64,000 nt of DNA, taken from Maribacter polysaccharolyticus. Its GTDB lineage: Bacteria; Bacteroidota; Bacteroidia; Flavobacteriales; Flavobacteriaceae. The stretch covers positions 260,328 through 324,327 of the forward strand of contig NZ_JARBUY010000004.1 in assembly GCF_028882255.1 (NCBI RefSeq), in the 5' to 3' direction. The translations under genes were made by a program, and so were the position numbers. Below the pieces are notes generated by a model that saw only the letters and a list, made by a program, of their open reading frames with translations, was not told where the DNA came from and ran no database searches. Numbering within the stretch: the first letter of the stretch is position 1; each line of letters opens with the position of its first letter. Shown here piece after piece: positions 24,993-53,328 of this stretch.

Positions 24993-25038
24993 GTTTAGGA
25001 GGTTTTAAAAACGCCACTTAAAGTCCATAAACCATCAC

Positions 25039-28019: not shown

Positions 28020-28221
28020 GGTGTAATGCCAAATACATATATAAATACTCCAGATCTTAGGCAGGATGCCGTCTAATAAAGTTAAGATTTTATTAGGAAA
28101 AATCAAGGTATATGCACTATATTAAAAAATTTGTATATATTTAAGCCAACGTATCAATCCCCCATATTTTTAGCAATAATATTATATTATCTTAAACACA
28201 TAGGATGTATATATAAAAATA

Positions 28222-28260
28222 TTCCAATTTTTGGAAGTTATCAACACGAAAACGTTTTCG
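28222..28260. promoter_or_regulatory. Putative LacI operator cluster upstream of the second susC
   Basis: Two palindromes lie side by side: TTCCAA-TTT-TTGGAA (28222-28236) and the perfect 14-bp CGAAAACGTTTTCG (28247-28260). Bases 28235-28256 share 21 of 22 positions with 14798-14819 at the first susC. The perfect central-CG palindrome is the classic form of a LacI-family operator. It lies about 94 bases before the susC ATG. Confidence 0.65.
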
Positions 28261-28353: not shown

Positions 28354-31317
28354 ATGAAGATTAAATTACTGCGTAGCTTTATGCTTGTCGGAGCTTTTAT
28401 ATGCTTTGGATGGGCACAGGCCCAAGAGGTATCGGGAACGGTTTCCGATGCCAATGGTCCCTTACCCGGGGCGAGTGTTGTCGAAAAAGGGACAACCAAT
28501 GGAACACAAACCGATTTCGATGGCAACTTTACGATCAACGTAGGCGAAAATGCCACATTGGTATTTAGTTATGTTGGGTTCAGTACCCAAGAAATTGCCG
28601 TTAATGGCCAAACCAATATTGATGTGCTGTTGACTGAAGATGCCCAAGCCTTGGATGAGGTGGTCATTGTTGGTTATGGTTCCTCTACCAAAAAGGAGAT
28701 TACCTCTGCGGTAGCAGTAGTTGATGAAGAGGCGTTCAACAAAGGTACGGTCAACGACGCTTCCCAACTACTCCAGGGAAAGGTCGCTGGTTTAAGTATT
28801 TATAACAAAGGCGGTAACCCCAATGAGGATGCCGTAATTCGTTTAAGGGGTATTTCCACCGTTGGAGCCAATTCGGAACCTTTAGTGGTCATCGATGGTG
28901 TTGTAGGGGCATCCCTGAATAACGTTGACCCCAATGACATTGCCAGTGTCAACGTTTTAAAAGACGGTTCCGCCGCAGCCATATACGGAACAAGGGGTTC
29001 CAGTGGGGTAATTCTTGTGACCACAAAACGTGGTACTGCGGGCGTTACAAGCGTGGATTACAATGGTTCCTTGGCCGTATCCACGATCGCCAACCATGTG
29101 GATGTGATGTCGGCCAATGAGTTCGCCGCCGCCGGTGGTGTGGATCTGGGGCAAAGAAACGACTGGTTGGATCTGGTAACCATGGATGGGACGACCAAGA
29201 TAAACAACGTGGCCATTTCGGGTGGTGATGGGAATACCTCCTACCGCATATCAGGAAACTTCAGAAATGCCCAAGGGATACTTAGAAACTCAGGGTTCAA
29301 ACAGTACAATACCCGGGCAAGCGTAACCACTTTCACATTGAACGATCGCCTGAAAATAGATTTCAACATGTCGTATACCAAAAGAAAGAGCAGATACGGT
29401 TTCAACGAAGCCTTACGCTACGCCTTGCTTTACAACCCAACTGCACCCGTTTTTGGCGCAGACTCCCCCTATGATTTCGACGCCGCTACTTACGGTGGGT
29501 ATTTTGAGACCTTGGGATTGTTCGATAGTTTCAATCCGGTTTCCATCATCCAACAAAATACCAATAATGGTGAAAAGAGTGAATTTACCTATAGTGCCAA
29601 TTTCAATTTCAAAATCATCGACAATTGGGATTTGAACGCCATGATCTCCCAACAATCAAGTAAATTGCTCAATAAAGAATACTATAGAACCACTTCACTA
29701 TGGAGGGGTAACGCCTCAAGTCCGATAAGAAAGGGGCTGGCACGATTGTACAATGAAGATCAAGAATTCAAATTGTTCGAATTGTACTCTACCTATAGAA
29801 CCAGTATTGGGCGGGCCGATATCACCTTTACCGGTGGTTACTCATGGCAGGAAACCACCCAATACGACTACTTTTTGTCAATGGGCGATTTTCCCAATGA
29901 CGATCTGCAGTATATCAATGCCTTGGAATGGTCACAAGATCTGGAGAATGCCGGGTTTATCGATATAAACAGCAACGCCTCACCAGAAGACCGTATCATT
30001 GCCTTTTTCGGAAGGGCCAGTGCCACATTTGACAACGCCATTTTCTTTAATGCTTCCATACGTCGTGAAGGTTCCACAAAATTTGGCGCAAATAATAGAT
30101 GGGCCACTTTCCCGGCCGTGGGTATAGGTGCCGACCTCAACAACTATTTGAATTTGAACAAAATAGATCTATTGAAAGTCCGTATCGGATATGGGGTAAC
30201 AGGGGCCTTACCTTCCAACAATGGCCTTTCCAAGTCATTGTATGAACCTGCCGATGGACGTTTGAGCAGTAACCAACTTACGGATGCGAACCCGGATTTA
30301 AAATGGGAAGAAAAGGCGGAAACCAACTATGGTATTGAATTTGCCGCCGGAAGACTGGGTGCGACATTGGATATTTATACGAGGAATGTAAGCGATTTCA
30401 TTTTGGAAAGGGACGTGGATGTCACCATTTACCCCACAGGAAGAAGATGGGAAAATGCAGGGGAATTAAAATCCCAAGGGTTTGAACTTGCCGTAAATTA
30501 CGATATTTTGAAATCCGAAGAATTGAATTACAATTCCGGTATCGTACTATCCAGAAACAAGACCACCTTGGAAAAATACACCATACCCCAAGAAATGAGA
30601 GGTTCTTTGGGGGCACCTGGCCAAAATGATACCGATATGATCCGGATAAAGGAAGGAGAGGAAATAGGTCAGATATGGGGACCTGTTTTCACGGGTGAAG
30701 TCGTTGACGGAAATCAAGTCCTTGAGGACGTCAATAACGATGGCCAACTACTGACAGCCCAGAATAACGCCTTGGACCCAGACGGTGATTTTAAGGTATT
30801 GGGTAAGGGTACTCCCGATTTTGAGATAGGATGGACCAACCAACTTAGTTACAAAAACTGGGACCTGAATGCTTTCTTTAGGGGAGCTTTCGGCCACAGT
30901 TTGATCAATACCTATAGGGCCTTTTACGAGCCGCGGGTAGGTAGCCAAGGGTCTTACAACTTCGTCAATACGGAATTGGCCAATCCTGAAATCACAAATG
31001 CCAAATTCAGCTCCTTATATGTTGAAAAAGCCGACTTCTTCAAATTGGATAACCTATCTATAGGCTATACTTTCGATATCAAGGAAAACGATTATGTTAA
31101 AGGGGTACGTATTACGGCCAGCGCCCAGAACCTCTTTACCATTACCAACTATACAGGTTCAGATCCCGAACCGGCATTACAGGACAGGGGTTCGGAAGCC
31201 GATAATGGCGGCTTTACCTCTACTGCTGCTTTTGACCCTCTTATTCCCGGTATTGACCGTAGGAGCAATTACTTTGCCGCACGCACTTTTACTTTGGGAC
31301 TAAACGTAAACTTTTAA
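28354..31317 (+). CDS. SusC/RagA TonB-dependent outer-membrane transporter, second locus
   Basis: The 987-residue protein has a signal peptide (ending WAQAQ), a carboxypeptidase-regulatory-like domain (VSGTVSD...LPGASVVEKG...TDFDGNFTI, about 27-100), the junction DEVVIVGYGS, a plug domain (IRLRGISTVG, AIYGTRGSSG) and a beta-barrel ending LGLNVNF. It is a nutrient importer working with the SusD encoded 10 bases downstream. No glycoside hydrolase, sulfatase, lyase or peptidase accompanies it, so the cargo is unknown and need not be a polysaccharide. It is preceded by LacI-type operator sequences. Confidence 0.94.
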   Translation: MKIKLLRSFMLVGAFICFGWAQAQEVSGTVSDANGPLPGASVVEKGTTNGTQTDFDGNFTINVGENATLVFSYVGFSTQEIAVNGQTNIDVLLTEDAQALDEVVIVGYGSSTKKEITSAVAVVDEEAFNKGTVNDASQLLQGKVAGLSIYNKGGNPNEDAVIRLRGISTVGANSEPLVVIDGVVGASLNNVDPNDIASVNVLKDGSAAAIYGTRGSSGVILVTTKRGTAGVTSVDYNGSLAVSTIANHVDVMSANEFAAAGGVDLGQRNDWLDLVTMDGTTKINNVAISGGDGNTSYRISGNFRNAQGILRNSGFKQYNTRASVTTFTLNDRLKIDFNMSYTKRKSRYGFNEALRYALLYNPTAPVFGADSPYDFDAATYGGYFETLGLFDSFNPVSIIQQNTNNGEKSEFTYSANFNFKIIDNWDLNAMISQQSSKLLNKEYYRTTSLWRGNASSPIRKGLARLYNEDQEFKLFELYSTYRTSIGRADITFTGGYSWQETTQYDYFLSMGDFPNDDLQYINALEWSQDLENAGFIDINSNASPEDRIIAFFGRASATFDNAIFFNASIRREGSTKFGANNRWATFPAVGIGADLNNYLNLNKIDLLKVRIGYGVTGALPSNNGLSKSLYEPADGRLSSNQLTDANPDLKWEEKAETNYGIEFAAGRLGATLDIYTRNVSDFILERDVDVTIYPTGRRWENAGELKSQGFELAVNYDILKSEELNYNSGIVLSRNKTTLEKYTIPQEMRGSLGAPGQNDTDMIRIKEGEEIGQIWGPVFTGEVVDGNQVLEDVNNDGQLLTAQNNALDPDGDFKVLGKGTPDFEIGWTNQLSYKNWDLNAFFRGAFGHSLINTYRAFYEPRVGSQGSYNFVNTELANPEITNAKFSSLYVEKADFFKLDNLSIGYTFDIKENDYVKGVRITASAQNLFTITNYTGSDPEPALQDRGSEADNGGFTSTAAFDPLIPGIDRRSNYFAARTFTLGLNVNF

Positions 31318-31327
31318 AAAATAAGCA

Positions 31328-32932
31328 ATGAAAAAAAATATATTCAAAATATTATTGATGTGCAGTGGGGCGTTCTTTGCTTCCTGTACGGATTTGGAAG
31401 AAGACCTGATTGGTGAGATCGACAATGCAGTGAGTATTGTGGAGGCCAGCAGCGATTTTGAAGGTGGTGGTAACGGGGGTAATGATGCCCTTAGTGTGGC
31501 CTACAGCCAATTGCGTAGTTCAGGTAGTGCCAATCATGGCGGCTATTGGTCCATACAATCCGTATCGACCGATGAAATGGCAGTGACCCAAAAAGGGGGC
31601 GACTGGTACGATGGGGGTATCTGGATCGATATGCATCGCCATACCTATGGGCCTTCCAATGGTCCTATCGATGGTACCTGGTCACAAACCTACACGGCAA
31701 TCGCAGCCTGTAACGATTTATTGGCAACCTCCTTGGATGCCAATCAGACGGCACAAATAAGGGTATTGCGGGCGTTGTTCTATTTTAGGTTATTGGATCT
31801 CTATGGTCGTGTTAAAATTATAACCTCCACAGGTACGGATGCTCCACAATCGACACGGTTGCAAGTGTTCAATTTTGTTGAAAGCGAACTGTTGGCTGCC
31901 ATAGGGATTCCTTCCGTAACCGCCTCAATGGACTTGTCCAATAGCCCACTCGGTGTTGATGTGAACCCATATCGTGTCAACCAATATGCCGCTCTTGGAT
32001 TATTGTCAAAACTCTATTTGAATGCCGAGGTCTATACCGGGACACCCCGATATACCGAAGCGGCCAATGCGGCCTCTTATGTCATAGACAATTCAGGATA
32101 CATTCTTTGTGGGGAAGGTTGTAGTGTTCCCAACCCAGGTAAAAGACCTGCGGTGGACACCGACCCCGATGAATTGGAAGGGTATGCCGCTGTTTTTGCC
32201 CCCAACAATCAAGACAATCCGGAAATCATCTGGTCAATTGCCTACGATGCCGCGACAGGTGGGGGAATGAATTTCCACGTCATGTCGCTTCACTACTCCA
32301 GTCAATTTACATGGAATTTCGAAAATCAACCCTGGAACGGGTATTCGGCCTTGGAAGATTTCTACAATTCCTATGACGATGACGATGCCCGTAAAGCGGC
32401 CAGTTTTATAGTGGGGCAACAGTATGACTACAATGGGTCCGCTATATTGGACTATGCGGCCACCGATGGGGAATTGGAATTGAATTACACCCCTGACATC
32501 AATGAATTGGAGCCTAACGCCTCTAGAAAAGGGGGAGCCCGTTTGGGTAAATTCAGTAACCGCCTTTTCCAAAGACAGGAAATGGACAATGACATGCCCA
32601 TTATCCGCTTGGGTGAACTTTATTTGATCCGGGCCGAAGGTATGGCACGAGCGACCGGGGATTGGTCTATGGCGGCGGCCGATGTAAATACGATCCGGGC
32701 AAGGGCAGGTCTAGACGCCATGACCACCATAGACGCAGATTCCTTTTTAGCGGAACGGGGACGTGAAATGTTCATGGAAGCTACAAGAAGGCAGGATCTG
32801 ATCCGTTTTGGCAAATATGATGACCCATGGTGGGAAAAAACAAACAGCGATGCATACAAATCCCTGTTCCCTATTCCGCAACCTCAAATTGATGCGGCAC
32901 AAGGCACATTAACTCAAAATCCAGGATACTAA
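31328..32932 (+). CDS. SusD/RagB outer-membrane lipoprotein, second locus
   Basis: This 534-residue protein has a lipoprotein signal with Cys20 (FFASC, followed by TDLEED), the SusD helix IRVLRALFYFRLLDLYGRV, the KLYLNAEVYTGTPRYTEA segment shared with the first SusD and the C-terminal helix EATRRQDLIRFGKYDDPWW before the terminal NPGY. It would cap the adjacent SusC and bind its cargo. A strong terminator starts 18 bases after the stop. Confidence 0.95.
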   Translation: MKKNIFKILLMCSGAFFASCTDLEEDLIGEIDNAVSIVEASSDFEGGGNGGNDALSVAYSQLRSSGSANHGGYWSIQSVSTDEMAVTQKGGDWYDGGIWIDMHRHTYGPSNGPIDGTWSQTYTAIAACNDLLATSLDANQTAQIRVLRALFYFRLLDLYGRVKIITSTGTDAPQSTRLQVFNFVESELLAAIGIPSVTASMDLSNSPLGVDVNPYRVNQYAALGLLSKLYLNAEVYTGTPRYTEAANAASYVIDNSGYILCGEGCSVPNPGKRPAVDTDPDELEGYAAVFAPNNQDNPEIIWSIAYDAATGGGMNFHVMSLHYSSQFTWNFENQPWNGYSALEDFYNSYDDDDARKAASFIVGQQYDYNGSAILDYAATDGELELNYTPDINELEPNASRKGGARLGKFSNRLFQRQEMDNDMPIIRLGELYLIRAEGMARATGDWSMAAADVNTIRARAGLDAMTTIDADSFLAERGREMFMEATRRQDLIRFGKYDDPWWEKTNSDAYKSLFPIPQPQIDAAQGTLTQNPGY

Positions 32933-32950
32933 TACATAGTTTTATTGAAT

Positions 32951-32980
32951 AAAAAGGGTTACATTGAGTAACCCTTTTTT
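32951..32980 (+). terminator. Rho-independent terminator after the second susD
   Basis: The 11-bp stem AAAAAGGGTTA / TAACCCTTTTT has a 7-base loop and a T tail. It separates susCD from the ASPIC lipoprotein genes that start 17 bases later, so those are expressed by readthrough or from a promoter inside this short gap. Confidence 0.85.
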
Positions 32981-32997
32981 CTATTCAACCAACCCAA

Positions 32998-35900
32998 ATG
33001 AGAACCTGTTTTTTATTGGTCATCAGCCTGTTTTTTTCACTATCATGCTCACGGGATGGTAAGCAACGACCCATTACCCAAGAACACCCCCTTTTTGAAC
33101 TCAGGGAGAACCGTGGCATTGATTTCCAGAATACACTGACCTATACCGAGGATTTTAACCCATATACCTACCGTAACTTCTATAATGGAGGTGGCATAGC
33201 CATAGGGGACATCAACAATGACGGTCTTCCCGATCTTTATTTCACAGGAAATATTGTCGATAACCGCCTGTATTTGAACAAAGGCGATTGGCAATTTGAA
33301 GACATCACCGATACTGCCGGGGTGGCTTGTAAGGACATTTGGTCCTCAGGGGCGACATTCGTGGACATTAACCATGATGGTCTTGTGGATATTTACGTCT
33401 GTAAATCGGGCAAACCCAATGGTACCAATCGGCACAACGAACTTTTTATCAATAACGGGGACCTGACATTTTCCGAACAATCCAAAAAATACGGACTGGA
33501 TATAACCGGATTATCGGTACAAGCCGCATTTTTCGATTATGACAAGGATGGGGATTTAGACTGTTACTTATTGAACAATTCCATAAAATCGGTTGGAGGA
33601 TACGATTTGATCAAGGATCAACGCAAAATACCCAGCGATACCGGCAATAAATTCCTGAAGAATGAAAACGGAAAATTTGTCGATTATTCCAGTGAGGCCG
33701 GGATTTATACCAGTAGTATCGGGTTTGGACTGGGCATTACCCTTAGTGATTTTAATGGGGATTCATGGCCCGATCTCTTTATTTCAAATGATTTTTTCGA
33801 AAGGGACTACCTCTACCTGAACAATAAAAATGGCGGCTTTGACGAGATGGCCGAAAATGCCATATCCTCATTTTCAATGGGTTCAATGGGTGCCGATGCC
33901 GCAGATCTGGATAACGATCTGCTACCCGACCTTATGGTCACCGAAATGTTGCCTAAAAACATAGAGCGCCAACGCACTAAAGCAATTTATGAATCCTGGG
34001 ACAAATTCAGCCTTGGGGTAAAACAAGGTTATGCACACCAATTTCCGAGAAATGTATTACAGAGGAACATGGGCCCCAACGGTTTTTATGAAGTAGGACG
34101 CTTTTCCGGGGTTCATGCCACGGAATGGAGTTGGGCCTCTTTGATTTTCGATATGGACAATGATGGCCTACGTGATATATTCATTAGCAACGGTATTTAC
34201 AAAGACCTTCTGGACAGGGATTATCTAACCTATATGGCCAATGAGGAAAAGGTAAGGAATATGATGAAAACACAAAACGAGGTGATAATGAAGCTTATCG
34301 ACCTTATGCCTTCCCAAGCCATTTCCAATACTTCCTATAAAAATATGGGAGGGTTTAAATTCGAGGACAAATCGGAAGACTTTGGGCTGGCAACACCCAG
34401 TTTCAGTAACGGAAGTGCTTATGCCGACCTTGATAATGACGGCGATCTTGACCTTGTGGTAAACAATGTCAATATGCCCTCTTTCGTTTACGAAAACAAG
34501 ACCGATACCCTAAAGAACCGAAGTATCCATCTTAAGTTTTCCTCTTCTTCGGAAAATACCCAAGCCATAGGTACGAAGGCCATCATTTATTATAGTGACG
34601 GTCAAAAGGCCATGGCAGAGAATTATCCCAGTAGGGGATTCCAAAGTTCTGTCGATACCGGCATCCATTTTGGATTGGGCGCATCAAAATTGGTCGACAG
34701 CCTGACCATAGTTTGGCCGAATGAAACGATTACCAAAGCATATAATTTACCATCGAATAAATCTTTTGTGTATCAGGAACCCCTTAATACACCAAAAAAC
34801 CCCATGTTCAAAACCCCAGATAAGCCCCTTATTACCCTTGCGAAGACCGATCCCTTGTTCCATTTTAAACACAAAGAAAATACCTTTATCGATTTTAACC
34901 GGGAACGCCTTTTACCCCATATGTCGAATAATGAAGGTCCGGCTTTGGCTACAGCGGATATCAACGGGGACGGCATTTTGGATATTTATATGGGAGGGGC
35001 CAAAAACCAAAAAGGAAGCCTATTCCTCTCCCAAGGTTCGACATACAAAGAAATCGACAAGCCCTTTGAGACCGATAAAAGGTCGGAGGATACCGACGCA
35101 CTTTTTTTTGACAGCGATTATGATGGGGACCTAGACCTATACGTTTGCAGCGGAGGTAAAGCTTTCTCAAAATATGATGCCCTGCTCAATGATCGATTGT
35201 ATATAAATGAACATGGTGTATTTTCAAAAGCCAAAAACCCCCTTCCCTTTCCCTTTCCGCTCAGTACGTCAACGGTAGTAGCCAATGACTTTGATAAAGA
35301 CGGGGATTGGGATCTATTTGTCGGGGGCAGGTTCGACCCCGAAACCTATGGTGCGGATGTATCTAGCTATATCCTAAAGAATAATGGGGATAATCATTTT
35401 GAAATCGCGGAACATAAGGACCTTAAAATCCTCGGGATGGTAACCAACGCTGCCTGGGGCGATATAAACGCCGATGGATGGGACGATCTTATTGTCGCGG
35501 GGGAATGGATGCCCATTAAAATATTCATCAATAAAAAAGGTGTCCTGACCGATGAAACCTCCAGCTACGGGTTCGAAAATTCAAATGGGATGTGGACATC
35601 ACTTAAGCTGACCGACATAGACGATGATGGGGATCTGGATATTATCGGTGGTAACATCGGAACTAACACCTTTTATAAACCCGGCAACCGAATGTTCATC
35701 AAGGATTTTGATGGCAACGGATTTTCAGAACAGATAATTTGCCATAAAATAGGGCAAAAGTATTTTCCGATTGTCGACCGGGATGAACTCATATCACAAT
35801 TACCTTACCTAAAATCGAAATTTTTGTATTTTAAGGATTACGCCACAGCGGCCATGAATGACATTTTTTCCGATGAAGACCTGAAAGATGCCAAAATACT

Positions 35901-36276
35901 GGATATCAACATCGTTGAATCCACTATATTCCTGAATTCGGAAGGCACCTTTATCAAAAATGCCCTACCCCCTGAGGCACAATACTCCAATATCGCTGCA
36001 ATTGAAATTGTGGATGCAGATCGGAATGGAATAAAAGATATACTTCTAGGTGGTAACCAATATTTGGTAAAACCCCAATTTGGAAGACAGGATGCTTCGA
36101 AGGGATGGTTGCTTTTAGGACAATTGAACAAAGAAAAGACCTATAACACCGTAAAAATCGAAAGCTTGGGAATACCGGGACAGATCAGGAATTTTGCCAT
36201 CCTTCCCTATAAAGACAAAACATTAGTATTAACCGCTTTAAACAATGATGAAATACAATTTCATGAAATACCGTAA
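32998..36276 (+). CDS. FG-GAP/VCBS repeat lipoprotein with ASPIC/UnbV domain, copy 1
   Basis: The 1092-residue lipoprotein (SLSC, Cys17) is a chain of at least 13 calcium-binding FG-GAP-type loops, such as GDINNDGLPDLYF, FFDYDKDGDLDCYL and YADLDNDGDLDLVV, which form beta-propeller blades. An ASPIC/UnbV domain (about 505-590, with RGFQSSVDTGIHFGLG) sits between two propeller halves. Proteins of this CRTAC1-like type are surface or periplasmic binding and adhesion proteins; no enzyme activity is known for them. The N-terminal block YRNFYNGGGIAIGDINNDG is conserved in the next two paralogues. It overlaps the next gene slightly. Confidence 0.9.
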   Translation: MRTCFLLVISLFFSLSCSRDGKQRPITQEHPLFELRENRGIDFQNTLTYTEDFNPYTYRNFYNGGGIAIGDINNDGLPDLYFTGNIVDNRLYLNKGDWQFEDITDTAGVACKDIWSSGATFVDINHDGLVDIYVCKSGKPNGTNRHNELFINNGDLTFSEQSKKYGLDITGLSVQAAFFDYDKDGDLDCYLLNNSIKSVGGYDLIKDQRKIPSDTGNKFLKNENGKFVDYSSEAGIYTSSIGFGLGITLSDFNGDSWPDLFISNDFFERDYLYLNNKNGGFDEMAENAISSFSMGSMGADAADLDNDLLPDLMVTEMLPKNIERQRTKAIYESWDKFSLGVKQGYAHQFPRNVLQRNMGPNGFYEVGRFSGVHATEWSWASLIFDMDNDGLRDIFISNGIYKDLLDRDYLTYMANEEKVRNMMKTQNEVIMKLIDLMPSQAISNTSYKNMGGFKFEDKSEDFGLATPSFSNGSAYADLDNDGDLDLVVNNVNMPSFVYENKTDTLKNRSIHLKFSSSSENTQAIGTKAIIYYSDGQKAMAENYPSRGFQSSVDTGIHFGLGASKLVDSLTIVWPNETITKAYNLPSNKSFVYQEPLNTPKNPMFKTPDKPLITLAKTDPLFHFKHKENTFIDFNRERLLPHMSNNEGPALATADINGDGILDIYMGGAKNQKGSLFLSQGSTYKEIDKPFETDKRSEDTDALFFDSDYDGDLDLYVCSGGKAFSKYDALLNDRLYINEHGVFSKAKNPLPFPFPLSTSTVVANDFDKDGDWDLFVGGRFDPETYGADVSSYILKNNGDNHFEIAEHKDLKILGMVTNAAWGDINADGWDDLIVAGEWMPIKIFINKKGVLTDETSSYGFENSNGMWTSLKLTDIDDDGDLDIIGGNIGTNTFYKPGNRMFIKDFDGNGFSEQIICHKIGQKYFPIVDRDELISQLPYLKSKFLYFKDYATAAMNDIFSDEDLKDAKILDINIVESTIFLNSEGTFIKNALPPEAQYSNIAAIEIVDADRNGIKDILLGGNQYLVKPQFGRQDASKGWLLLGQLNKEKTYNTVKIESLGIPGQIRNFAILPYKDKTLVLTALNNDEIQFHEIP

Positions 36277-36865
36277 GTTAATTTTACTTTCAAGTTTTTT
36301 GCTGGGTATCGCCTCGCTTATTTCCTGTGAGTCGGAATATACGAAAACGGTCAACCGGGAGGCCGATAAAGGGGTCCTGAAGGATAGTTTGGTTTTGGGA
36401 ATGTCGTTTGGTTACACCAAACAGGATTTCTTCGACCACTGTTGGAAACTGAACAATAAAGGATTGGTAACCCAAGGTCCGAACAATCGATCCGTTCAAT
36501 ACCAATTAAGCTCCAATGACAATAACCAAAACCTAACTGCCATTTTGATGCTTTTTTATGGGAACTTCAACGAAAATAATATCATGACAGGAATGGACAT
36601 GGAATTCTCCTATAAAGCCTGGGCACCGTGGAACGATGACCTATACAGCGATAAATTGGTCCCGGTCTTAATCGACACCCTATTGAGATGGTTTCCCGGA
36701 AACAGGTTCATGTCCATAAAATCGGATAAATTGGATTCGGACACCTATGTAAAAGTCGATGGTAACCGACAAATCATGGTGTACCCCAAAGGGATAAAGA
36801 ACGTGGTCGTCAAAATCGAAGATCTGAAATACAAATACCCCGAAAAGTTCAAACAATCAAAATGA
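36263..36865 (+). CDS. Small lipoprotein of unknown function between ASPIC paralogues
   Basis: From the ATG at 36263 the protein has 200 residues: a lipoprotein signal (LLGIASLISC, Cys22) and a mixed alpha/beta body with Trp/Tyr-rich stretches (YKAWAPWNDDLY, LLRWFPGNRF). I recognise no family. ATGs at 36245 and 36248 are alternative starts that lengthen the overlap with the upstream gene. The stop overlaps the next ASPIC gene's start as ATGATG, so it is translated as part of this lipoprotein operon and may be a partner of the large propeller proteins. Confidence 0.75.
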   Translation: MKYRKLILLSSFLLGIASLISCESEYTKTVNREADKGVLKDSLVLGMSFGYTKQDFFDHCWKLNNKGLVTQGPNNRSVQYQLSSNDNNQNLTAILMLFYGNFNENNIMTGMDMEFSYKAWAPWNDDLYSDKLVPVLIDTLLRWFPGNRFMSIKSDKLDSDTYVKVDGNRQIMVYPKGIKNVVVKIEDLKYKYPEKFKQSK

Positions 36866-39800
36866 TGAAAAAAATATTTTTCGTAGTTACTATTTTAGCC
36901 TGCATCCTTATTTTTTCCTGCACGCAAAAAGATAATGCCAACCAAGATCCCCAAACCTTGTTCCAATTAATGGACAGTACGGATACAGGTATAAATTTTG
37001 TGAATGACCTAAATTATGACCACGACTTCAATGTTTATAAATACCGTAATTTCTATAACGGAGGCGGGGTCGCTCTTGGCGATGTCAACAACGATGGACT
37101 CTTGGATATTTATTTCACCTCGAACTTGAAATCAAACCGCCTTTACCTGAACAAAGGTGGGTTTAAATTCGAGGACATTACCGATAAAGCCCATGTTGGG
37201 GGAACAAAAGCTTGGTCTACCGGGGTCACCATGGTAGATATAAATGCCGATGGGTATTTGGATATTTATGTCTGTAATTCCGGTGACATAGTCGGTGACA
37301 ACAAAGAAAACGAGCTGTTCATAAACAATGGCCCCAATACCGAAACGGGTCAGGTGACTTTTACCGAAGCCGCCAAAAAATACGGACTCGATGACAGGGG
37401 GTTCTCGACCCACGCTTCGTTTTTTGATTATGACCGGGATGGCGACCTTGATGTTTACCTCCTTAACAATTCTTACCGTTCCATAGGAAGTTTTAACCTG
37501 CAACGTAATGAACGCTTTGAACGCGATGTTCTCGGAGGGGATAAATTATTGCGAAACGATGGGGATACTTTTACCGATGTAAGTGAAGCATCGGGGATAT
37601 ACGGAAGTGTTATCGGTTTTGGACTGGGAGTTACGGTCGGTGACCTCAACAATGATGATTGGGAAGACATATACGTTTCCAATGACTTTTTTGAACGGGA
37701 TTACATTTACATCAATCAAAAAGACGGCACCTTTAAGGAAACGTTGACCGAACAGATCCAATCCCTGAGCAGTGCTTCGATGGGGGCCGATGCGGCCGAC
37801 ATCAATAATGACGGCAATATCGATTTATTTGTCACCGAAATGCTCCCTTCGGAATACGATAGGCTTAAAACCGTTACAACATTTGAAGATTGGAACAAAT
37901 ACCAACACAACCTTAAAAATGGGTATTACCATCAATTTACACGAAACACCTTACAGCTGAACAATGGGAATTCGACCTTTAGTGAAATCGGCAGGTTCAG
38001 CGGTGTCGAGGCTTCCGATTGGAGTTGGGGAGCCTTGTTTTTCGACATGGACAATGACGGTCTTAAAGATCTTTTCATCGCCAATGGCATTTATAAAGAT
38101 TTGACCGACCAAGACTATCTTCAATACATATCGAGTGATGCGGCGATCCAAACCATTGTTTCGGGCAATGAAGTCGATTATGACCGGTTGATCGAGATAA
38201 TTCCTTCGAACAAGGTCCCCAATCACGCCTATAAAAATTTAGGGAATCTGAAATTCGAAAGAAATTGGGAATCGGGTCTGAATACCCCCAGCTTTTCCAA
38301 TGGTTCGGCCTATGGAGACCTGGATAATGATGGGGATTACGACCTTGTGGTGAACAATGTGAACATGCAGTCGTTCGTTTACAGGAACCACGCCGATAAA
38401 GAACAGGGGACCAACTATCTTAAAATGATACTTCATGGCGAGGGAAAGAACACCAATGCCATTGGTGCAAAGATCAAAGTTGAAACCAAGGACGAAACCC
38501 TTTATCAAGAACAACAACCTATCCGTGGTTTTCAATCAAGTATGGACCTTCGCCCGAATTTTGGGCTAAATGCCAACGATTCGGTAAGTGTACAAGTGGT
38601 ATGGCCTTCCGGTAAAATTACCGTTCTCAAGCACGTAGCGGCCAATCAAACCATAGAATTATTTGAACATCAAGGTGTCGCACCCGACAAAAAAACCGAT
38701 GCCACACCCCAGGGGATATTTGTACGTAGTGCCATGAACCTCCCGTTTAAACATACCGAAAACCGTTTTGTGGATTTTGACAGAGATCGGTTACTGCCCC
38801 ATATGTTAAGTACCGAAGGTCCAAAAATGGCCATAGCCGATGTAAATAACGACGGACTCGATGATCTTTTCATCGGAGGGGCAAAAGGTAGTTTATCTAC
38901 CCTATTGATCGGTAATGGCAACGGTTTTATCGAAAGTAAAATCCCGGATTTCAATAAGAACATCAATGCTGAAGATGGGGGCAGTCTCTTTTTCGATGCC
39001 GACAACGATGGCGATCAAGACTTATATGTTTGCAGTGGTGGCGTGGAATTCTCCAAGTTTTCCAGCTACCTAAAAGACCGTCTTTATTTTAATGACGGAC
39101 GCGGCAATTTTTCACTTTCCCCCCAACTCCTACCCAACATTAATGGGAATCATAGTACTTCGACCGTAATTAGCGATGATATCGACAATGATGGTGATTT
39201 GGATCTTTTTGTTGGGGAACGCAGCATACCCACCCAATACGGCATGCCGGGATCCGGGTTTATTTTGCAGAATGATGGAAAGGGGAATTTCAAGGATATC
39301 ACTGCCGAAATAGCGCCCGAACTGCAAAACTTGGGAATGATAACGGATGCCCTGTTCATAGATCTTGATGCCGATGCCAAAAATGAGCTCCTTATCATAG
39401 GGGAGTATATGGGTATCGAAATCTTCAAAAACGAAGGGGGCCATTTCGTAAAGGCCCCTAATAATCAATTGGCCGCTTTACACGGTTGGTGGAGAACCGT
39501 CCATCCGGTAGACTTGGATAATGATGGCGATATTGATTTGGTTTTGGGCAACCATGGGGAGAATTCCCGATTTAAAGCAAGTCGGGACAAACCCATAAAC
39601 CTTTATATCAGTGATTTTGACCAAAATGGATTTATAGACCCCATAATGACCTTTACCGCGGATAACGGCAAAGAATATCCGTACAATCTAAGGCATAATC
39701 TTATAGAACAATTAAAAGACCTTAAAAAGAAATATCCCGACTTTGCTTCTTTCAAAGATGCCAGTATAAAGGACATACTCTCCGAATCCCAATTGGAGGG

Positions 39801-40179
39801 GGCGGTAAAATTACAGGCCAATAAGCTGACCTCAACACTCCTCATCAATGAAGGGAATATGGAATTCAATGTAGTACCATTACCTATTGAAGCGCAGCTA
39901 TCCCCCATTTATGCCATCGCTTCAGCCGATTTTGACAATGATGGCGACCAGGACGTGCTTTTAGGGGGAAACCTTTATAATACCAAACCCGAAGTAGGCC
40001 GTTATGATGCCTCTTTCGGATTATACCTTGAAAACATTGATGGCACCTTAAAGGCCCATAACAAAGGACAAGGATTTTCACTTTTGGGAGAAATCCGTGA
40101 TATCAAAATAAGTGACCATAAAGTAATCGTGTCTAGGAACAATGACTCCTTGGCCATATTCAAGTACAACATTAGATGA
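36862..40179 (+). CDS. FG-GAP/VCBS repeat lipoprotein with ASPIC/UnbV domain, copy 2
   Basis: The 1105-residue lipoprotein (LIFSC, Cys20) has about 13 FG-GAP loops (GDVNNDGLLDIYF, MVDINADGYLDIYV, FFDADNDGDQDLYV, SADFDNDGDQDVLL) and a central ASPIC/UnbV domain (about 517-593, with RGFQSSMDLRPNFGLN). It is collinear with copies 1 and 3 over its length, including YNGGGVALGDVNNDG and WSWGALFFDMDNDGLKDLFI. Start and stop both overlap neighbours (ATGATG at the front, ATGA at the back), so the three copies are a single translational unit with the small lipoprotein. Confidence 0.9.
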   Translation: MMKKIFFVVTILACILIFSCTQKDNANQDPQTLFQLMDSTDTGINFVNDLNYDHDFNVYKYRNFYNGGGVALGDVNNDGLLDIYFTSNLKSNRLYLNKGGFKFEDITDKAHVGGTKAWSTGVTMVDINADGYLDIYVCNSGDIVGDNKENELFINNGPNTETGQVTFTEAAKKYGLDDRGFSTHASFFDYDRDGDLDVYLLNNSYRSIGSFNLQRNERFERDVLGGDKLLRNDGDTFTDVSEASGIYGSVIGFGLGVTVGDLNNDDWEDIYVSNDFFERDYIYINQKDGTFKETLTEQIQSLSSASMGADAADINNDGNIDLFVTEMLPSEYDRLKTVTTFEDWNKYQHNLKNGYYHQFTRNTLQLNNGNSTFSEIGRFSGVEASDWSWGALFFDMDNDGLKDLFIANGIYKDLTDQDYLQYISSDAAIQTIVSGNEVDYDRLIEIIPSNKVPNHAYKNLGNLKFERNWESGLNTPSFSNGSAYGDLDNDGDYDLVVNNVNMQSFVYRNHADKEQGTNYLKMILHGEGKNTNAIGAKIKVETKDETLYQEQQPIRGFQSSMDLRPNFGLNANDSVSVQVVWPSGKITVLKHVAANQTIELFEHQGVAPDKKTDATPQGIFVRSAMNLPFKHTENRFVDFDRDRLLPHMLSTEGPKMAIADVNNDGLDDLFIGGAKGSLSTLLIGNGNGFIESKIPDFNKNINAEDGGSLFFDADNDGDQDLYVCSGGVEFSKFSSYLKDRLYFNDGRGNFSLSPQLLPNINGNHSTSTVISDDIDNDGDLDLFVGERSIPTQYGMPGSGFILQNDGKGNFKDITAEIAPELQNLGMITDALFIDLDADAKNELLIIGEYMGIEIFKNEGGHFVKAPNNQLAALHGWWRTVHPVDLDNDGDIDLVLGNHGENSRFKASRDKPINLYISDFDQNGFIDPIMTFTADNGKEYPYNLRHNLIEQLKDLKKKYPDFASFKDASIKDILSESQLEGAVKLQANKLTSTLLINEGNMEFNVVPLPIEAQLSPIYAIASADFDNDGDQDVLLGGNLYNTKPEVGRYDASFGLYLENIDGTLKAHNKGQGFSLLGEIRDIKISDHKVIVSRNNDSLAIFKYNIR

Positions 40180-43100
40180 CATACCGAAAAGGCATACTAG
40201 CACTGTTGGCAATTATCCTGGTAAGTTGCTCAAAGAAAAATGAGGAACTTGCTGAAAAAAGACCAACCCTATATTTTAAATCGATACCTGCAGAACTCAG
40301 TGGGTTGAACTTTACCAATACCCTATCCCCAAAAAATGACCTCAATATCATTGAATATCTTTATTATTATAACGGCGGAGGGGTCGCCCTTGGGGATATC
40401 AACAATGACGGATTGGACGATATCTATTTAACGGCGAACCAATCGCCCGATAAATTATTTCTGAATCTCGGGAACCTAAGGTTTAAGGATATAACCGCAA
40501 CGGCAGGTATTGCCATAGACTCCACCTGGTCTTCCGGAGCGACCATGGAAGATGTGAACAACGATGGCCTATTGGATATTTATGTCTCGAAAGTGGGGAA
40601 TTACAAAGGGTTGAAAGCCCATAACCTTTTGTATTTGAATAAAGGCAACGAGACCTTTGAAGAGGTTTCCGAACAGGTTGGTCTTGACTTTTCGGGCTTT
40701 TCGACACAAGCGGCTTTTATGGATTATGACAACGATGGGGACATGGACATGTACCTTATGAACTGTTCCATCCATACACCGCGTAGTTATGGAAAAGCCC
40801 ATAAACGAAAGGAGAAAGACTCCCTTGCCGGGGATCGTTTTTATGAGAACAAATTAAATGAAGGTGTCCTTTCTTTTGAAAATGTAACCCATACTTCAGG
40901 AATTTATTCGAGCGCTTTGGGCTACGGCCTTGCCTTGGTCGCCGCTGATATCAATCAAGATGGCCTCTTGGATATTTATGTGGGCAACGATTTTCATGAA
41001 AATGATTATCTCTATATAAATCAAGGGGACAAAACGTTCAAGGAAATGGGGGCAGCATGGTTAAACCATACCACACGCTTTACCATGGGTGCCGATATCG
41101 GGGACATGAACAATGATGGCCTACAGGATATTTTCACCTTGGACATGATGCCCTTCGACCATGAGGTTTTCATGAAATCGGGGGGGGAAGATTCTGATAA
41201 GGTAAGTCAAATAAAGTCCGATTTCGGATTTGGCAAACAGTATGCACGTAATAATTTTCAATTGAATACAGGAGAAGCCTCCTTTTCGGACATCGCCCCG
41301 ATGACCAACACCCATGCGACCGACTGGAGTTGGTCGGTATTGATAGAGGATTACGACAATGATGGCCTGAACGATCTCTATATCACAAATGGCATTTATA
41401 AAAGACCCAACGATTTGGATTATATCAATTACCTGAGCAATACCGATTTTAGCAATTATTCCCAGAGTCAGGCTTACGAAATAGAAAAAAAATTGATCCA
41501 ACAAATGCCGACTTTGAAACTGTCGAACATCCTTTTCAAAAACAAGGGAAATCTTGATTTTGAACGTTTGACCACCGATGCCGGCCTAGTCCCTTCCTTT
41601 TCCAATGGAGCGGCCTATAGTGATCTGGACCTTGATGGGGATTTGGATCTGGTCGTAAACAACATCAACGAAAATGTATTTCTTTTAGAGAATGAAACCC
41701 AAGGCCATAATTTCATGGTAGTTGACCTTGCCGATAGCTTGCAAAGTACCACGGGGGCCAAAGTAAGGGTCCATTCCGGTACAAAGGTCCTTGCCAAGGA
41801 ATTAACGGTTACCCGGGGATTTCAATCCGCATCGTCCCGAAAATTGCATTTTGGCCTTGGTGCGATGACCAAAATAGACTCCGTGCAGATCATTTGGCCC
41901 GATGGAAGTGTCCAAACCGAAAAAGATCTTTTGGCAAACTCCTTTAAAACGATAACAAAAAAAACAGGTTTGCCCCAGTATACCTATACGCCGGCCATCA
42001 AGCCCAAATCCTATACAAAATTCGAATATACCCACATTGAAAACAAGTATTTCGATTATGAACGTGAATCCCTGATACCTGAAAAGTTATCGGTTGAAGG
42101 ACCGGCCAGTATCAGGGCCGATTTTAATGGGGACGGCCTTCAAGACATCTTTATCGGGGGAGCCAAATACCAAGCAGCAAGCCTGTTCCTACAAGATGAA
42201 AATGGCGGCTATCAACTTAAAAAGACCCCGCAATTCGCTAAGGATAAAATTTTTGAGGATGTAGACGCGGAAGTATTTGACCTTGAAAATGACGGCGATC
42301 TTGACCTTTACGTCATCAGTGGTGGAAACGACCTTATGGAAGGCAATCAAAATCTAGAGGACCGGGTGTACCTTAATGATGGCCATGGTAATTTTGAGCG
42401 ATTGAACGCCATATTACCCAGGATCAACGGCGGAAGCATTTCAGCCGGGGATTTCAATGCCGACGGTTATACCGATTTGTTCCTAGGAGGTCGATCTATC
42501 CCCGGAGCATACGGCCTACCGCCAACAAGTATGATTTTAAAGAATACCTCAGAAGGGAATTTTGAGGCCGTCATGAACGGAAGATATGGGATGGTAACCG
42601 ACAGCCAATGGTCAGATCTTAATGATGATGGCCTGCTAGACTTGGTCATCATTGGTGATTGGATGCCCATTACGGTGATGATAAACAAAGGCAATGACCG
42701 TTTTGAGGACCAAACCCTTGCCTACGGACTGGAAAATACCAATGGGATGTGGAATACCATTAGTATTGAAGATTTGGATAATAATGGCCATAAAGATATA
42801 ATAGTGGGAAACGCGGGGCTCAACCTAAAATGGAAAGCTTCCCAGGAGAAACCCGTTAAACTCTATCTTGATGATTATGACGAAAATGGGCAACTAGATC
42901 CGTTGATTTTCTACGATTTCTTTGGCCACTATGTTCCTTTTGCCTCAAAGGATAACTTAATGGCACAATTGCCTTATTTAAAAAAACGATTTTTAAGTTA
43001 CACCGACTTCTCCAAAATAAAGGGTATCGAAGACCTTACCGGTGTTCCCGAGAAAGATATTGCATTACAACTGCAGATCCACGAATTACGATCTATGGTA

Positions 43101-43427
43101 TATTTTAACAATGGCACATCCTTTATAGGTACCCCATTGCCTAAAGAAGCCCAAATGAGTACTATTGAAGATATGCTCGTCAATACCGATGGGACGGATA
43201 AACAGCTCTATTTTGTAGGCAATTATCTCGACTATGTAAATGAGTTGGGGGTTAGCGATGCCAATCCCGGAGGAGTGCTTTACAATTTCAATGGAACAAA
43301 CTTTCAAAGTTATCGCCCTTTAGGGTTACCCAAGGAAACAAGTGCCCGTAAATTGATAAAGATATCGGATGGCAAGCTATTGGTCGTAACCAATAACAGT
43401 GATGCTTTGGTCATTGACGGGCTTTAG
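40176..43427 (+). CDS. FG-GAP/VCBS repeat lipoprotein with ASPIC/UnbV domain, copy 3
   Basis: The 1083-residue lipoprotein (ILVSC, Cys18) has about 12 FG-GAP loops (GDINNDGLDDIYL, MEDVNNDGLLDIYV, YSDLDLDGDLDLVV, AGDFNADGYTDLFL) and an ASPIC/UnbV domain (about 510-586, with RGFQSASSRKLHFGLG). It is a paralogue of the two preceding proteins but more diverged, for example YLYYYNGGGVALGD replaces YRNFYNGGGVALGD. It overlaps copy 2 by 4 bases. A 199-base gap without an obvious hairpin follows before the haloperoxidase-like gene. Confidence 0.9.
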   Translation: MTYRKGILALLAIILVSCSKKNEELAEKRPTLYFKSIPAELSGLNFTNTLSPKNDLNIIEYLYYYNGGGVALGDINNDGLDDIYLTANQSPDKLFLNLGNLRFKDITATAGIAIDSTWSSGATMEDVNNDGLLDIYVSKVGNYKGLKAHNLLYLNKGNETFEEVSEQVGLDFSGFSTQAAFMDYDNDGDMDMYLMNCSIHTPRSYGKAHKRKEKDSLAGDRFYENKLNEGVLSFENVTHTSGIYSSALGYGLALVAADINQDGLLDIYVGNDFHENDYLYINQGDKTFKEMGAAWLNHTTRFTMGADIGDMNNDGLQDIFTLDMMPFDHEVFMKSGGEDSDKVSQIKSDFGFGKQYARNNFQLNTGEASFSDIAPMTNTHATDWSWSVLIEDYDNDGLNDLYITNGIYKRPNDLDYINYLSNTDFSNYSQSQAYEIEKKLIQQMPTLKLSNILFKNKGNLDFERLTTDAGLVPSFSNGAAYSDLDLDGDLDLVVNNINENVFLLENETQGHNFMVVDLADSLQSTTGAKVRVHSGTKVLAKELTVTRGFQSASSRKLHFGLGAMTKIDSVQIIWPDGSVQTEKDLLANSFKTITKKTGLPQYTYTPAIKPKSYTKFEYTHIENKYFDYERESLIPEKLSVEGPASIRADFNGDGLQDIFIGGAKYQAASLFLQDENGGYQLKKTPQFAKDKIFEDVDAEVFDLENDGDLDLYVISGGNDLMEGNQNLEDRVYLNDGHGNFERLNAILPRINGGSISAGDFNADGYTDLFLGGRSIPGAYGLPPTSMILKNTSEGNFEAVMNGRYGMVTDSQWSDLNDDGLLDLVIIGDWMPITVMINKGNDRFEDQTLAYGLENTNGMWNTISIEDLDNNGHKDIIVGNAGLNLKWKASQEKPVKLYLDDYDENGQLDPLIFYDFFGHYVPFASKDNLMAQLPYLKKRFLSYTDFSKIKGIEDLTGVPEKDIALQLQIHELRSMVYFNNGTSFIGTPLPKEAQMSTIEDMLVNTDGTDKQLYFVGNYLDYVNELGVSDANPGGVLYNFNGTNFQSYRPLGLPKETSARKLIKISDGKLLVVTNNSDALVIDGL

Positions 43428-43626
43428 ATCACCTGTACGGTCCATTTAAAAATAAAATTATCCTGATAAAACGGAAAATTCAAGAAAGCTATTGACCACC
43501 AAGAACATACCATACAAATATTAACATTTTCTAATGTACCCAAGCCCTTTCGTTTTTTTAAATTGCTTACTAATATTACCCAACATTGATAATTATACGA
43601 CATACCGATTGAAAAATTAAGTGCAA

Positions 43627-44979
43627 ATGAAAAAAACAATATCATTGATATTCGCCATCGCCCTACTCACCTCGTGTGGCAGGAATAAAATGGAAGAACC
43701 TTTGGCCATTGGTCCCGATGAGTTCCATGCTTCCATAAAGAAAGTCACCGAAATCATGATCCATGATATTTTTTCGCCCCCAGTGGCAAGCCGGGTATTT
43801 GCTTACCCCAATATAGCGGCCTATGAAATCGTTGCAGTGAACAATGATGACTACCTATCCTTGTCTGGTCAGGTACACGGACTTTCGCCCATACCCCAAC
43901 CCGATTCCACGAAAGCCATAAACTACCAGGCAGCAGCCCTTGTGGCCCATTTGGAACTGAGCAAAAAATTGATTTTTTCTGAAAATAAACTTGAAAGCTT
44001 CAGGGATAGCCTCTACCAAAAATGGAGCACCAGCAACCCAGAAACATTCGAGGCTTCAAAAGAGTATGGTCTTAAGGTAGCGAAGCATATCGGTGATTGG
44101 ATGAACAAGGATAATTACAATCAGACCCGGACCATGCCCAAATTCACCGTGGATACCTATGAACCGGGAAGATGGCAACCAACACCTCCGGCCTATATGG
44201 ATGGCATAGAGCCGCATTGGGATAAAATACGTCCGTTCGTCATAGATTCTGCCAATCAATTCAGACCTCAACCACACCCGACCTTCTCGTTAGAAAAGGA
44301 CTCCCCCTTTTATAAGGAACTGAAGGAAGTTTACGATATCAGCAATGAGATTACCCAAAAAGGGGATACTTCGGAGGAAGTCAAAATTGCCCAGTTTTGG
44401 GATTGCAACCCTTATGTCTCGGTAACGCGGGGACATTTGATGTTCGCTACGAAAAAAATAAGTCCGGGGGCCCATTGGATCGGTATCGCCCAAGTAGCCA
44501 GTAGAAAGGCGAACCTTGATTTTGACACAACGGTATATGCCTTGACAAAAACGTCAATGGCCATTGCCGATGCCTTTATCAGTTGTTGGGCCGAGAAATA
44601 CCGCAGTAATTTGATTCGTCCCGAAACTTTGATCAACCAGCATATCGATGAGGATTGGCTACCGGTTTTACAGACCCCTCCGTTTCCCGAATATACGAGT
44701 GGCCATAGTGTGGTTTCAGGAGCTGCGGCCATTGCCCTTACCGATATTTTCGGGGACAATTTCGCCTTTGACGATGATGTGGAAGTACCATATGGTCTTC
44801 CGATCAGAAGTTTCAATTCCTTCAATGAAGCCGCCCAAGAAGCGGCATTAAGTAGGATTTATGGGGGGATCCACTATAGATCGGCGATAGAAGTTGGAAT
44901 AAAACAGGGGCGTGACCTCGGTACCTATCACCTGAACAAACTAAAAATGACCAAAGCAAAGGAATTAGCCTCTAATTGA
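43627..44979 (+). CDS. Vanadium-dependent haloperoxidase/PAP2-like lipoprotein
   Basis: From the ATG at 43627 the protein has 450 residues and a lipoprotein signal (ALLTSC, Cys17). It carries the three-part active site of the vanadium haloperoxidase / PAP2 acid phosphatase superfamily: K-x6-RP at Lys324-Arg331 (KYRSNLIRP), xSGH at 358-360 (YTSGHS) and SR-x5-H at Arg410-His416 (SRIYGGIHYRSA). The Asp normally found four residues after the last His in phosphatases is Ala here. Whether it oxidises halide or removes phosphate cannot be settled by eye. It shares the plus-strand run with SusCD and ASPIC proteins and is followed 5 bases later by another lipoprotein gene. Confidence 0.85.
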   Translation: MKKTISLIFAIALLTSCGRNKMEEPLAIGPDEFHASIKKVTEIMIHDIFSPPVASRVFAYPNIAAYEIVAVNNDDYLSLSGQVHGLSPIPQPDSTKAINYQAAALVAHLELSKKLIFSENKLESFRDSLYQKWSTSNPETFEASKEYGLKVAKHIGDWMNKDNYNQTRTMPKFTVDTYEPGRWQPTPPAYMDGIEPHWDKIRPFVIDSANQFRPQPHPTFSLEKDSPFYKELKEVYDISNEITQKGDTSEEVKIAQFWDCNPYVSVTRGHLMFATKKISPGAHWIGIAQVASRKANLDFDTTVYALTKTSMAIADAFISCWAEKYRSNLIRPETLINQHIDEDWLPVLQTPPFPEYTSGHSVVSGAAAIALTDIFGDNFAFDDDVEVPYGLPIRSFNSFNEAAQEAALSRIYGGIHYRSAIEVGIKQGRDLGTYHLNKLKMTKAKELASN

Positions 44980-44984
44980 TTCGA

Positions 44985-45842
44985 ATGCCAAAGATCTCCG
45001 CCACCCTACTCGTTTTATTGCTGTTGACAAGCTGTTCAAATTATGCCCAACTTACCTACTTGACCGAACTTCCAAAAAAAATAAAGGAAAATTCAGGTAT
45101 GACCATCTTGGACAAGAATACCGTTTGGTTCATCGAAGACCATGGTAATCCCGACGAAATATATCAGGTTGACCTAAATGGAACACTGCTTAAAGCATTG
45201 AAGGTGAAAAATGCAAAAAATAAGGATTGGGAAGATTTGACCAAGGATACCGAGAATAATATTTATATAGGTGATTTCGGCAATAACGACAACAAAAGAA
45301 AGAACCTTACCATTTACAAAATCCCGGATCCGAGCAGTGAAAAAAGCGAAACCAAAGCGGCCGATAAAATTACTTTTGAATATCCCGGACAAAAGGATTT
45401 TCCCCCATCAAAGGCCGAAATGAATTTTGATGCCGAAGCCTTTTTCCATCATGACAATGCCCTTTACATTATCACCAAGAACCGGACCGAACCTTTTACG
45501 GGTATTGCTTCGATTTACAAAGTACCTGCAACCCCCGGAGCGTATAAGGCCGAATTCATAGGGGAATTCAGTACCTGTAAAGATGATGGTCATTGCCGGG
45601 TGACCGCGGCCGATATTTCCCCTGATAACTCAACGGTCGCTTTATTGGGGTACGGTCAAATATGGTTGTTCACCAATTTTGAATGGGATGATTTCTCTAA
45701 AGGGGATATTGAAACCATCGACCTGGGAATATCGACCCAATTGGAATCACTTAACTTCCTGGATGACAACACCCTTTTACTTTCTGATGAAAAAAACGGG
45801 GAAAAGGGTGGTAACCTCTACTCCTTCAAAATATCAAAATGA
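44985..45842 (+). CDS. Lipoprotein of unknown function, beta-propeller-like
   Basis: From the ATG at 44985 the protein has 285 residues; a TTG at 44976 is a less likely start. The signal peptide ends in a lipobox (LLLLTSC, Cys17). The body has recurring strand patterns (NTVWFIEDHGN, NNIYIGDFGNND, DAEAFFHHDNALYIITKN, NTLLLSDEKNG) that suggest a six-bladed or similar propeller, like phytase-like or SdiA-regulated-type folds, but I cannot assign a family with confidence. It follows the haloperoxidase-like gene by 5 bases and is the last gene of the second locus. Confidence 0.7.
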   Translation: MPKISATLLVLLLLTSCSNYAQLTYLTELPKKIKENSGMTILDKNTVWFIEDHGNPDEIYQVDLNGTLLKALKVKNAKNKDWEDLTKDTENNIYIGDFGNNDNKRKNLTIYKIPDPSSEKSETKAADKITFEYPGQKDFPPSKAEMNFDAEAFFHHDNALYIITKNRTEPFTGIASIYKVPATPGAYKAEFIGEFSTCKDDGHCRVTAADISPDNSTVALLGYGQIWLFTNFEWDDFSKGDIETIDLGISTQLESLNFLDDNTLLLSDEKNGEKGGNLYSFKISK

Positions 45843-53223: not shown

Positions 53224-53328
53224 CTTTAGTCTTTACATGACCGATAAAATTACAAAAACTTGATGATTTTAAGCTTTAAGCCCTCCAGGTATTCCCTGTT
53301 TTTTAAGATATTTATGCAAATTTCAGGT

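Follow-up and report, generated by a model that had tools for sequence, protein, structure and literature searches.

The vanadium haloperoxidase zgVIPO1 of Zobellia galactanivorans (4CIT/4USZ) is known from the isolated enzyme, on which specificity for iodide has reportedly been shown. Structures and activities have been obtained for bacterial iodoperoxidases, and we know of no settled physiological role for them. The Sus operon and other polysaccharide utilization loci (PULs) combine a SusC-SusD pair with further lipoproteins and a local regulator gene. Here we describe a locus of Maribacter polysaccharolyticus in which these elements meet. It lies in a stretch of 64,000 nucleotides (contig NZ_JARBUY010000004.1, positions 260,328 to 324,327, forward strand; the window), where positions 28354-45842 encode, all on the + strand, SusC, SusD, three FG-GAP/ASPIC lipoproteins, a 206-residue orphan, a PAP2/haloperoxidase protein, and a 288-residue protein. 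The operon shares with PULs the SusC-SusD pair, the lipoproteins, and the regulator gene; it differs from them in carrying ASPIC propellers instead of SusE/F, a peroxidase, and no glycosidase.

The enzyme and the SusCD pair are of known kinds, whereas their combination, its conservation, the single operator, and the sugar context are apparently undescribed. In the literature searched, from which subscription papers were largely absent, no description was found of the SusCD-ASPIC-peroxidase combination or of the zgVIPO1 operon, and the combination is not described in the portions seen of PMC12419801, PMC2668756, and PMC3174227. Our preferred reading, to which we assign a probability of about 0.5, is that the locus encodes a surface system, controlled by LacI, that serves alpha-glucosides; SusCD would be partnered by the ASPIC propellers, and a co-expressed peroxidase would make hypoiodite. 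This reading draws on the gene content, its conservation, the vanadate-site residues, a unique and conserved operator-like site, and the association with alpha-glucoside genes. The features are as follows.

26994-28106, - strand: LacI-family repressor, divergent from SusC (PF00356 and PF13377)
28238-28260, + strand: putative LacI operator TTATCAACACGAAAACGTTTTCG, 94-116 bases 5' of the SusC start (genome-wide pattern search)
28354-31317, + strand: SusC-type TonB-dependent transporter (TIGR04056, E = 5e-188)
31328-32932, + strand: SusD-type lipoprotein (PF07980/PF14322), distantly akin to the SusD structures 3jys and 3ck7
32998-36276, + strand: ASPIC-1, FG-GAP/ASPIC lipoprotein of 1092 residues (PF13517 and PF07593)
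36245-36865, + strand (alternative start 36263): small orphan lipoprotein of 206 residues, no Pfam match
36862-40179, + strand: ASPIC-2, FG-GAP/ASPIC lipoprotein of 1105 residues (Pfam FG-GAP/ASPIC)
40176-43427, + strand: ASPIC-3, FG-GAP/ASPIC lipoprotein of 1083 residues (Pfam FG-GAP/ASPIC)
43621-44979, + strand (ATG start probably 43627): vanadium-dependent iodoperoxidase homologue (VIPO), lipoprotein (homology to zgVIPO1)
44976-45842, + strand: SdiA-regulated-like lipoprotein of 288 residues (weak PF06977 match)

The extent of the locus and its gene identities had been given in a preliminary description made from the sequence, and the Pfam and TIGRFAM matches bear them out. In a search of solved structures, VIPO aligns over its full length with zgVIPO1 (E = 3.8e-232; next match, E = 0.0019), to which it is 71.6% identical over 450 residues. 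Eight residues that we take to form the vanadate site (K, R, P, S, G, H, R, and H) are invariant in all 162 aligned sequences, comprising 160 from loci, the window VIPO, and zgVIPO1. The protein matches PF01569 (PAP2), a family in which the phosphatase and vanadate haloperoxidase classes have a site in common. Homology and site residues together support the earlier label of haloperoxidase-like enzyme: by homology, VIPO is a halide-oxidizing peroxidase that would be expected to oxidize iodide. In a search of the 4.76-Mb genome it matches only itself. In Z. uliginosa (L012), an enzyme 98.4% identical to zgVIPO1 lies in the gene order ASPIC-ASPIC-ASPIC-VIPO, the same kind of cassette as in the window, and zgVIPO1 itself is therefore very likely to lie in an ASPIC cassette.

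Conservation was assessed in 160 unique VIPO loci, most of them stretches of about 20 kb. They come from a scan of named genomes that yielded 484 relatives, the best 80 being retained, with further stretches added from sampled genomes, and the sample leans to close relatives. Eleven loci were dropped, leaving 149 with at least 4 kb upstream and at least 2 kb downstream. ASPIC is the immediate same-strand neighbor of VIPO in 112 of these 149 (108 upstream, 4 downstream) and is present somewhere in the stretch examined in 130; we estimate that a family with about five members in each genome would turn up next to VIPO by chance in well under 1% of cases. Twenty cassettes were chosen for showing three ASPIC genes, and extra upstream DNA was taken for them; counted by eye, SusC-SusD lies upstream in all 20 and a LacI gene in 15. 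Outside the family, 247 genomes were searched and 51 found, with VIPO matches at E = 1e-50 in 41, and 20 of the 41 were taken. ASPIC is adjacent to VIPO in 8 of these 20 loci and one or two genes off in five more (L217, L219, L226, L231, L232). SusC and SusD are both recognized in 5 of the 20, and L228 at least has a SusD-like protein missed by the labels. The adjacency persists at about 41% VIPO identity (L113, L114, L180). SusC-SusD, the ASPIC genes, and VIPO form a conserved cassette. The set withstands one of the two refuting conditions named in the preliminary description, namely that its genes are not conserved together.

Two interchangeable cassettes are found beside VIPO. Cassette A, the window's, reads SusC-SusD-ASPIC-small-ASPIC-ASPIC. 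Cassette B has a different SusC and SusD (about 30% identity to those of A), two or three ASPIC genes, and a protein of about 304 residues, presumably GyrI-like, with no Pfam match at 1e-6. On a VIPO tree from a quick search, with some long branches (26 A rows, 98 B rows, 37 unlabeled), the A/B label takes 13 changes, of which starred branches force 6; it is also clustered, shuffled labels averaging 23.9 changes. The two cassettes have alternated beside VIPO 6 to 13 times, whether the cassettes or the VIPO genes moved. In either case the ASPIC cassette and VIPO have been paired anew several times, a pattern in favor of a functional link. By eye, genes for xylulokinase, xylose isomerase, and a sodium-solute symporter are seen between cassette A and VIPO in several relatives (L010, L015, L029, L038, L047, and others); the window's cassette is without them.

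The three ASPIC proteins all contain FG-GAP repeats and PF07593 above the cut-offs, and they are the only PF07593 proteins found in the genome. A profile search of the PDB gives cartilage acidic protein 1 (CRTAC1, 9ETN) as the best match (E = 1e-25). The AlphaFold model of ASPIC-2, the sole one modeled and hence the one on which the agreement in fold rests (predicted local distance difference test, pLDDT, 89.1; predicted template modeling score 0.90), agrees: its best PDB match is again 9ETN (E = 5e-25), with a template modeling score of 0.69 on the target and 0.36 on the query. Relative to CRTAC1, the bacterial proteins are about twice as long, are lipoproteins, and occur here as a triplet. 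Each has 12 calcium-type loops, which in ASPIC-1 are DxDxDG-like. An ASPIC protein dedicated to VIPO was considered and rejected, because such proteins are widespread: 231 of the 299 genomes sampled in this bacterial family have them. The small orphan occurs in 11 of 26 genomes tested, each with cassette A, for which it serves as a marker. Its AlphaFold model, built from three sequences, is weak (pLDDT 71.7) and has no PDB match at E = 0.001, the best being YjgB (4ygt, E = 0.006).

Regulation by LacI, assumed in the preliminary description, is consistent with the divergent LacI gene and with an operator-like site that is unique in the genome and conserved among relatives. LacI genes divergent from SusC beside a GH65/HAD cluster in relatives are 56-71% identical to the window LacI, and TTATYAACACGAAAMCGTTTTCG is common to the LacI-SusC intergenic regions of relatives. 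Over the 4.76-Mb genome, the site at 28238-28260 is the only one at up to three mismatches, and the reversed-pattern control gives 0. Taken by itself, its 16-base palindrome is unremarkable in the window (three matches, reached by 22 of 100 shuffles), and weight is therefore placed on the longer 23-base site and its conservation. Among 32 genome handles of relatives, two of which (G108 and G319) are one genome, the site is present at up to two mismatches in 27, exactly once in 25 of the 27, and is absent from 5. Counted by hand, it lies within 30 kb of VIPO in 24 of the 27, where G307, G308, G310, G311, G318, G320, and G321 were assumed from coordinates to have both on the same contig; it is about 800 kb away in G108/G319 and apparently on another contig in G316. 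The same site is carried by SusC genes of cassette-B loci (L095-L097, L184, L186, L199). Where GH32 lies upstream, the LacI is a different one (about 35% identity), and the core CGAAAACGTTTTCG precedes SusC in L195, L196, L200, L201, and L202 and does not in L189, L190, L191, L193, L194, and L198. Because the genome holds a single operator-like site, the putative LacI regulon looks like this one operon.

Both the type of regulator and the enzymes found next to or inside related cassettes suggest alpha-glucosides as the putative cargo. The context in the window is as follows.

7766-8599: GDPD, a nearby phosphate-ester enzyme (Pfam)
8596-13562, - strand: cluster of GH13, GH65 (maltose phosphorylase by homology), and a HAD hydrolase
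13664-26922: second LacI (-), then a starch-type sus operon (SusC, SusD, SusE, two GH13; 14936-26922)
45880-49587, - strand: metallophosphoesterase, a calcineurin-like phosphoesterase fused to an Omp85-type barrel (Pfam)

The statement that the locus has no carbohydrate enzymes thus holds for the operon itself but not for its surroundings, the starch sus operon and the GH13/GH65 cluster lying directly upstream. The GH65 resembles maltose phosphorylase (1h54, E = 2e-217) more closely than kojibiose phosphorylase (6w0p, E = 8e-131), and we take the HAD hydrolase, from its context, to be a beta-phosphoglucomutase. In relatives, the counterpart of the window LacI is the LacI beside the GH65-HAD pair. 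The starch-type sus operon and its LacI sit between the GH65 cluster and the cassette's LacI; the same-genus relatives L094 and L103 are without the starch operon, and there the cassette directly adjoins the GH65 cluster.

Among the matches listed, GH65 lies within 40 kb of VIPO in 40 of the 86 VIPO genomes that have it (about 2% expected at random, by our own estimate), and a full-length trehalase within 20 kb in 25 of 65 (about 1% expected, likewise). Downstream of VIPO, L144 has a GH13 that is similar to oligo-1,6-glucosidases and to sucrose isomerases, together with a GH97, a trehalase, and a pair of MFS transporters; L150 has the same genes minus the GH13, and its GH97 matches 8WG0 (E = 9e-193). 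In another family, L217 and L219 (by Pfam) and L226 (by phmmer only) have a GH65 of the alpha-glucosidase type as the gene just before VIPO in the same-strand run. The GH65 of L219 matches 7FE3 (E = 6e-238), and a ROK-family gene lies downstream in L217 and L219. We take 7FE3, an alpha-1,2-glucosidase, and 8WG0 to come from a dextran locus of Flavobacterium johnsoniae; neither enzyme is in the window operon. Another large gene occupies the GH65 place in L231 and L232, and it is glycosidase-like by Pfam in L231, the one tested. Upstream of LacI, L189 has a sugar MFS transporter, GH32, and a PfkB kinase, and L193 has GH32. GH32 is found in 89 of 128 VIPO genomes and 15 of 171 others (matches listed, kinship ignored). 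As a functional partner in this genome it was rejected, being a lone gene 72 kb away among unrelated genes.

In the preferred reading, LacI would leave its single operator when the sugar, the presumed inducer, is present. SusC-SusD, the three CRTAC1-like ASPIC lipoproteins, the small lipoprotein, and probably the iodoperoxidase would then be made together. SusC-SusD would import an alpha-glucoside of the maltose, sucrose, trehalose, or isomalto-oligosaccharide class, with the ASPIC propellers as accessory lipoproteins, at the place held by SusE in the neighboring starch operon. VIPO, probably at the cell envelope, would use hydrogen peroxide to convert iodide to hypoiodite. This might remove peroxide or deter competitors during sugar uptake; iodine capture is another option.

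Several observations weigh against this reading. The Pfam and TIGRFAM scan finds no glycan-active enzyme between 28354 and 45842, and SusC-SusD systems usually take oligosaccharides larger than disaccharides. ASPIC is absent from the stretch examined in 19 of the 149 loci of the family, although in four of them (L002, L021, L024, L081) ASPIC genes lie further upstream than the stretch; in other families it is absent from 7 of 20, one of which (L218) is a gene-calling loss. No GH65, HAD/PGM, GH97, trehalase, or second-MFS gene is present in 122 of the 160 locus stretches. Among the matches listed, 56 of 128 VIPO genomes have none of GH65, trehalase, and GH32 near VIPO; the window's own genome is counted in the 56 though its GH65 is about 31 kb away. 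The genome has no match to GMC oxidoreductase (PF05199) and no obvious source of peroxide. Coupling of VIPO to a glucose oxidase, with peroxide from a GMC oxidase beside it, was rejected on the same ground, and genes upstream of ASPIC-VIPO in L139 that were suspected to encode an oxidase turned out to be an ACP phosphodiesterase and a gamma-glutamyltranspeptidase. In many relatives, xylose genes separate cassette A from VIPO, indicating that VIPO need not share a transcript with the cassette and that the region gathers sugar genes in general. Finally, the maltose/trehalose label changes only four times on the VIPO tree, so that most of the sugar associations were inherited together, and much of the sugar link may reflect gene order passed on by descent.

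These last points also fit the best-surviving alternative, namely that there is no functional link and that sugar operons, SusCD-ASPIC, and VIPO are neighbors in a chromosomal hotspot because their order was inherited. Long-range synteny is indeed strong: of the 89 genomes with both among the matches listed, 51 have GH32 no more than 100 kb from VIPO, and here it is the lone gene mentioned above. We nevertheless regard this explanation as unlikely, as it does not sit well with the ASPIC-VIPO adjacency at about 41% VIPO identity and in other families, the repeated exchange of cassettes A and B beside VIPO, or the single operator-like site before SusC.

More improbable still is that the locus serves iodine acquisition, with VIPO making HOI or I2 that is collected by the SusCD-ASPIC machine or by organics at the cell surface. 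In the presence of glucose, oxygen, and calcium, iodine builds up in Arenibacter C-21, glucose being dispensable if peroxide or oxidized iodide is supplied, and the strain has at least five zgVIPO homologues (PMC5064120). Other Arenibacter strains (L027, L035, L037, L039-L041) hold ASPIC-ASPIC-VIPO, and the 12 calcium-type loops of each ASPIC protein here also favor such a role. Iodine acquisition leaves the sugar-type regulator and the sugar neighbors unexplained, however, and a proposal with a membrane glucose oxidase, reported in PMC5064120, contrasts with the lack of a GMC oxidoreductase match in this genome. Under the preferred reading, a sugar-induced VIPO would be one explanation of the glucose need in C-21 iodine uptake.

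Least probable, in our view, is the cargo suggested in the preliminary description, a halogenated or phosphorylated algal compound captured and modified by the peroxidase/PAP2 enzyme before import: VIPO is a genuine haloperoxidase homologue of a family whose phosphatase and vanadate sites are shared, GDPD and the metallophosphoesterase lie nearby, and one Zobellia iodoperoxidase, vIPO3, was up-regulated on Ascophyllum compared with alginate (PMC9296495), yet the enzymes found in or next to related cassettes have alpha-glucosides as substrates, and no dehalogenase occurs among the annotated neighbor genes, HAD-superfamily phosphatase-type genes apart and many neighbor genes being left unannotated.

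Some details of the layout bear mention. A lipobox-like Cys is seen by eye in all six proteins after SusD. The preliminary description had four genes overlapping by a few bases; two overlaps of 4 bases (orphan/ASPIC-2 and ASPIC-2/ASPIC-3) are confirmed, that between ASPIC-1 and the orphan is 32 or 14 bases depending on whether the orphan starts at 36245 or 36263, and the 4-base overlap of VIPO and the last gene holds only with TTG 44976 as the start, an ATG being present at 44985. ASPIC-3 and VIPO are separated by 193 bases. The SdiA-regulated-like gene adjoins VIPO in many close relatives, is a partner in only part of the relatives, and was not seen at trehalase-type loci. Promoter-like sites (36 vs 41.3 in shuffles), terminator-like sites (27 vs 22.0, standard deviation 4.5), and the TTTG/TAnnTTTG promoter pattern (1 match vs 2.99) do not stand out in the scan.

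Beyond the operon, the phosphoesterase-Omp85 gene and the next genes keep their order in about 60 loci. An HD-domain protein with a PycTM (Pycsar effector) region (49642-50823, + strand) keeps its position in about 60 loci, as would be expected of a resident gene rather than of a mobile defense gene. Proteins of 792 residues (50845-53223, - strand) and 319 residues (53260-54219, + strand) have no Pfam match at 1e-6 and are syntenic in more than 50 loci each. Elsewhere, two tandem TPR-like proteins lie near the VIPO-ASPIC pair of L113 (6637-13199), their C-terminal part presumably CHAT-like as judged by eye, and the VIPO stretch of L169 has DUF1501 and PSCyt1/PSD1 (planctomycete-type cytochrome) genes (13099-17816).

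Generally, these results assign zgVIPO1-type enzymes to a conserved SusCD-ASPIC cassette that has a LacI-type operator, and they provide partner proteins, a promoter region, and a class of inducers that can be tested. A broader proposal, in which one LacI switch couples SusCD-ASPIC uptake of alpha-glucosides to surface iodide oxidation, so that algal sugars would trigger oxidative defense or iodine capture throughout marine Bacteroidota, is tentative and on balance doubtful. The placement of zgVIPO1-type enzymes in such a cassette would itself point to a first role for the large ASPIC lipoproteins and would join sugar uptake by Bacteroidota to iodine cycling, two marine themes that are usually studied apart.

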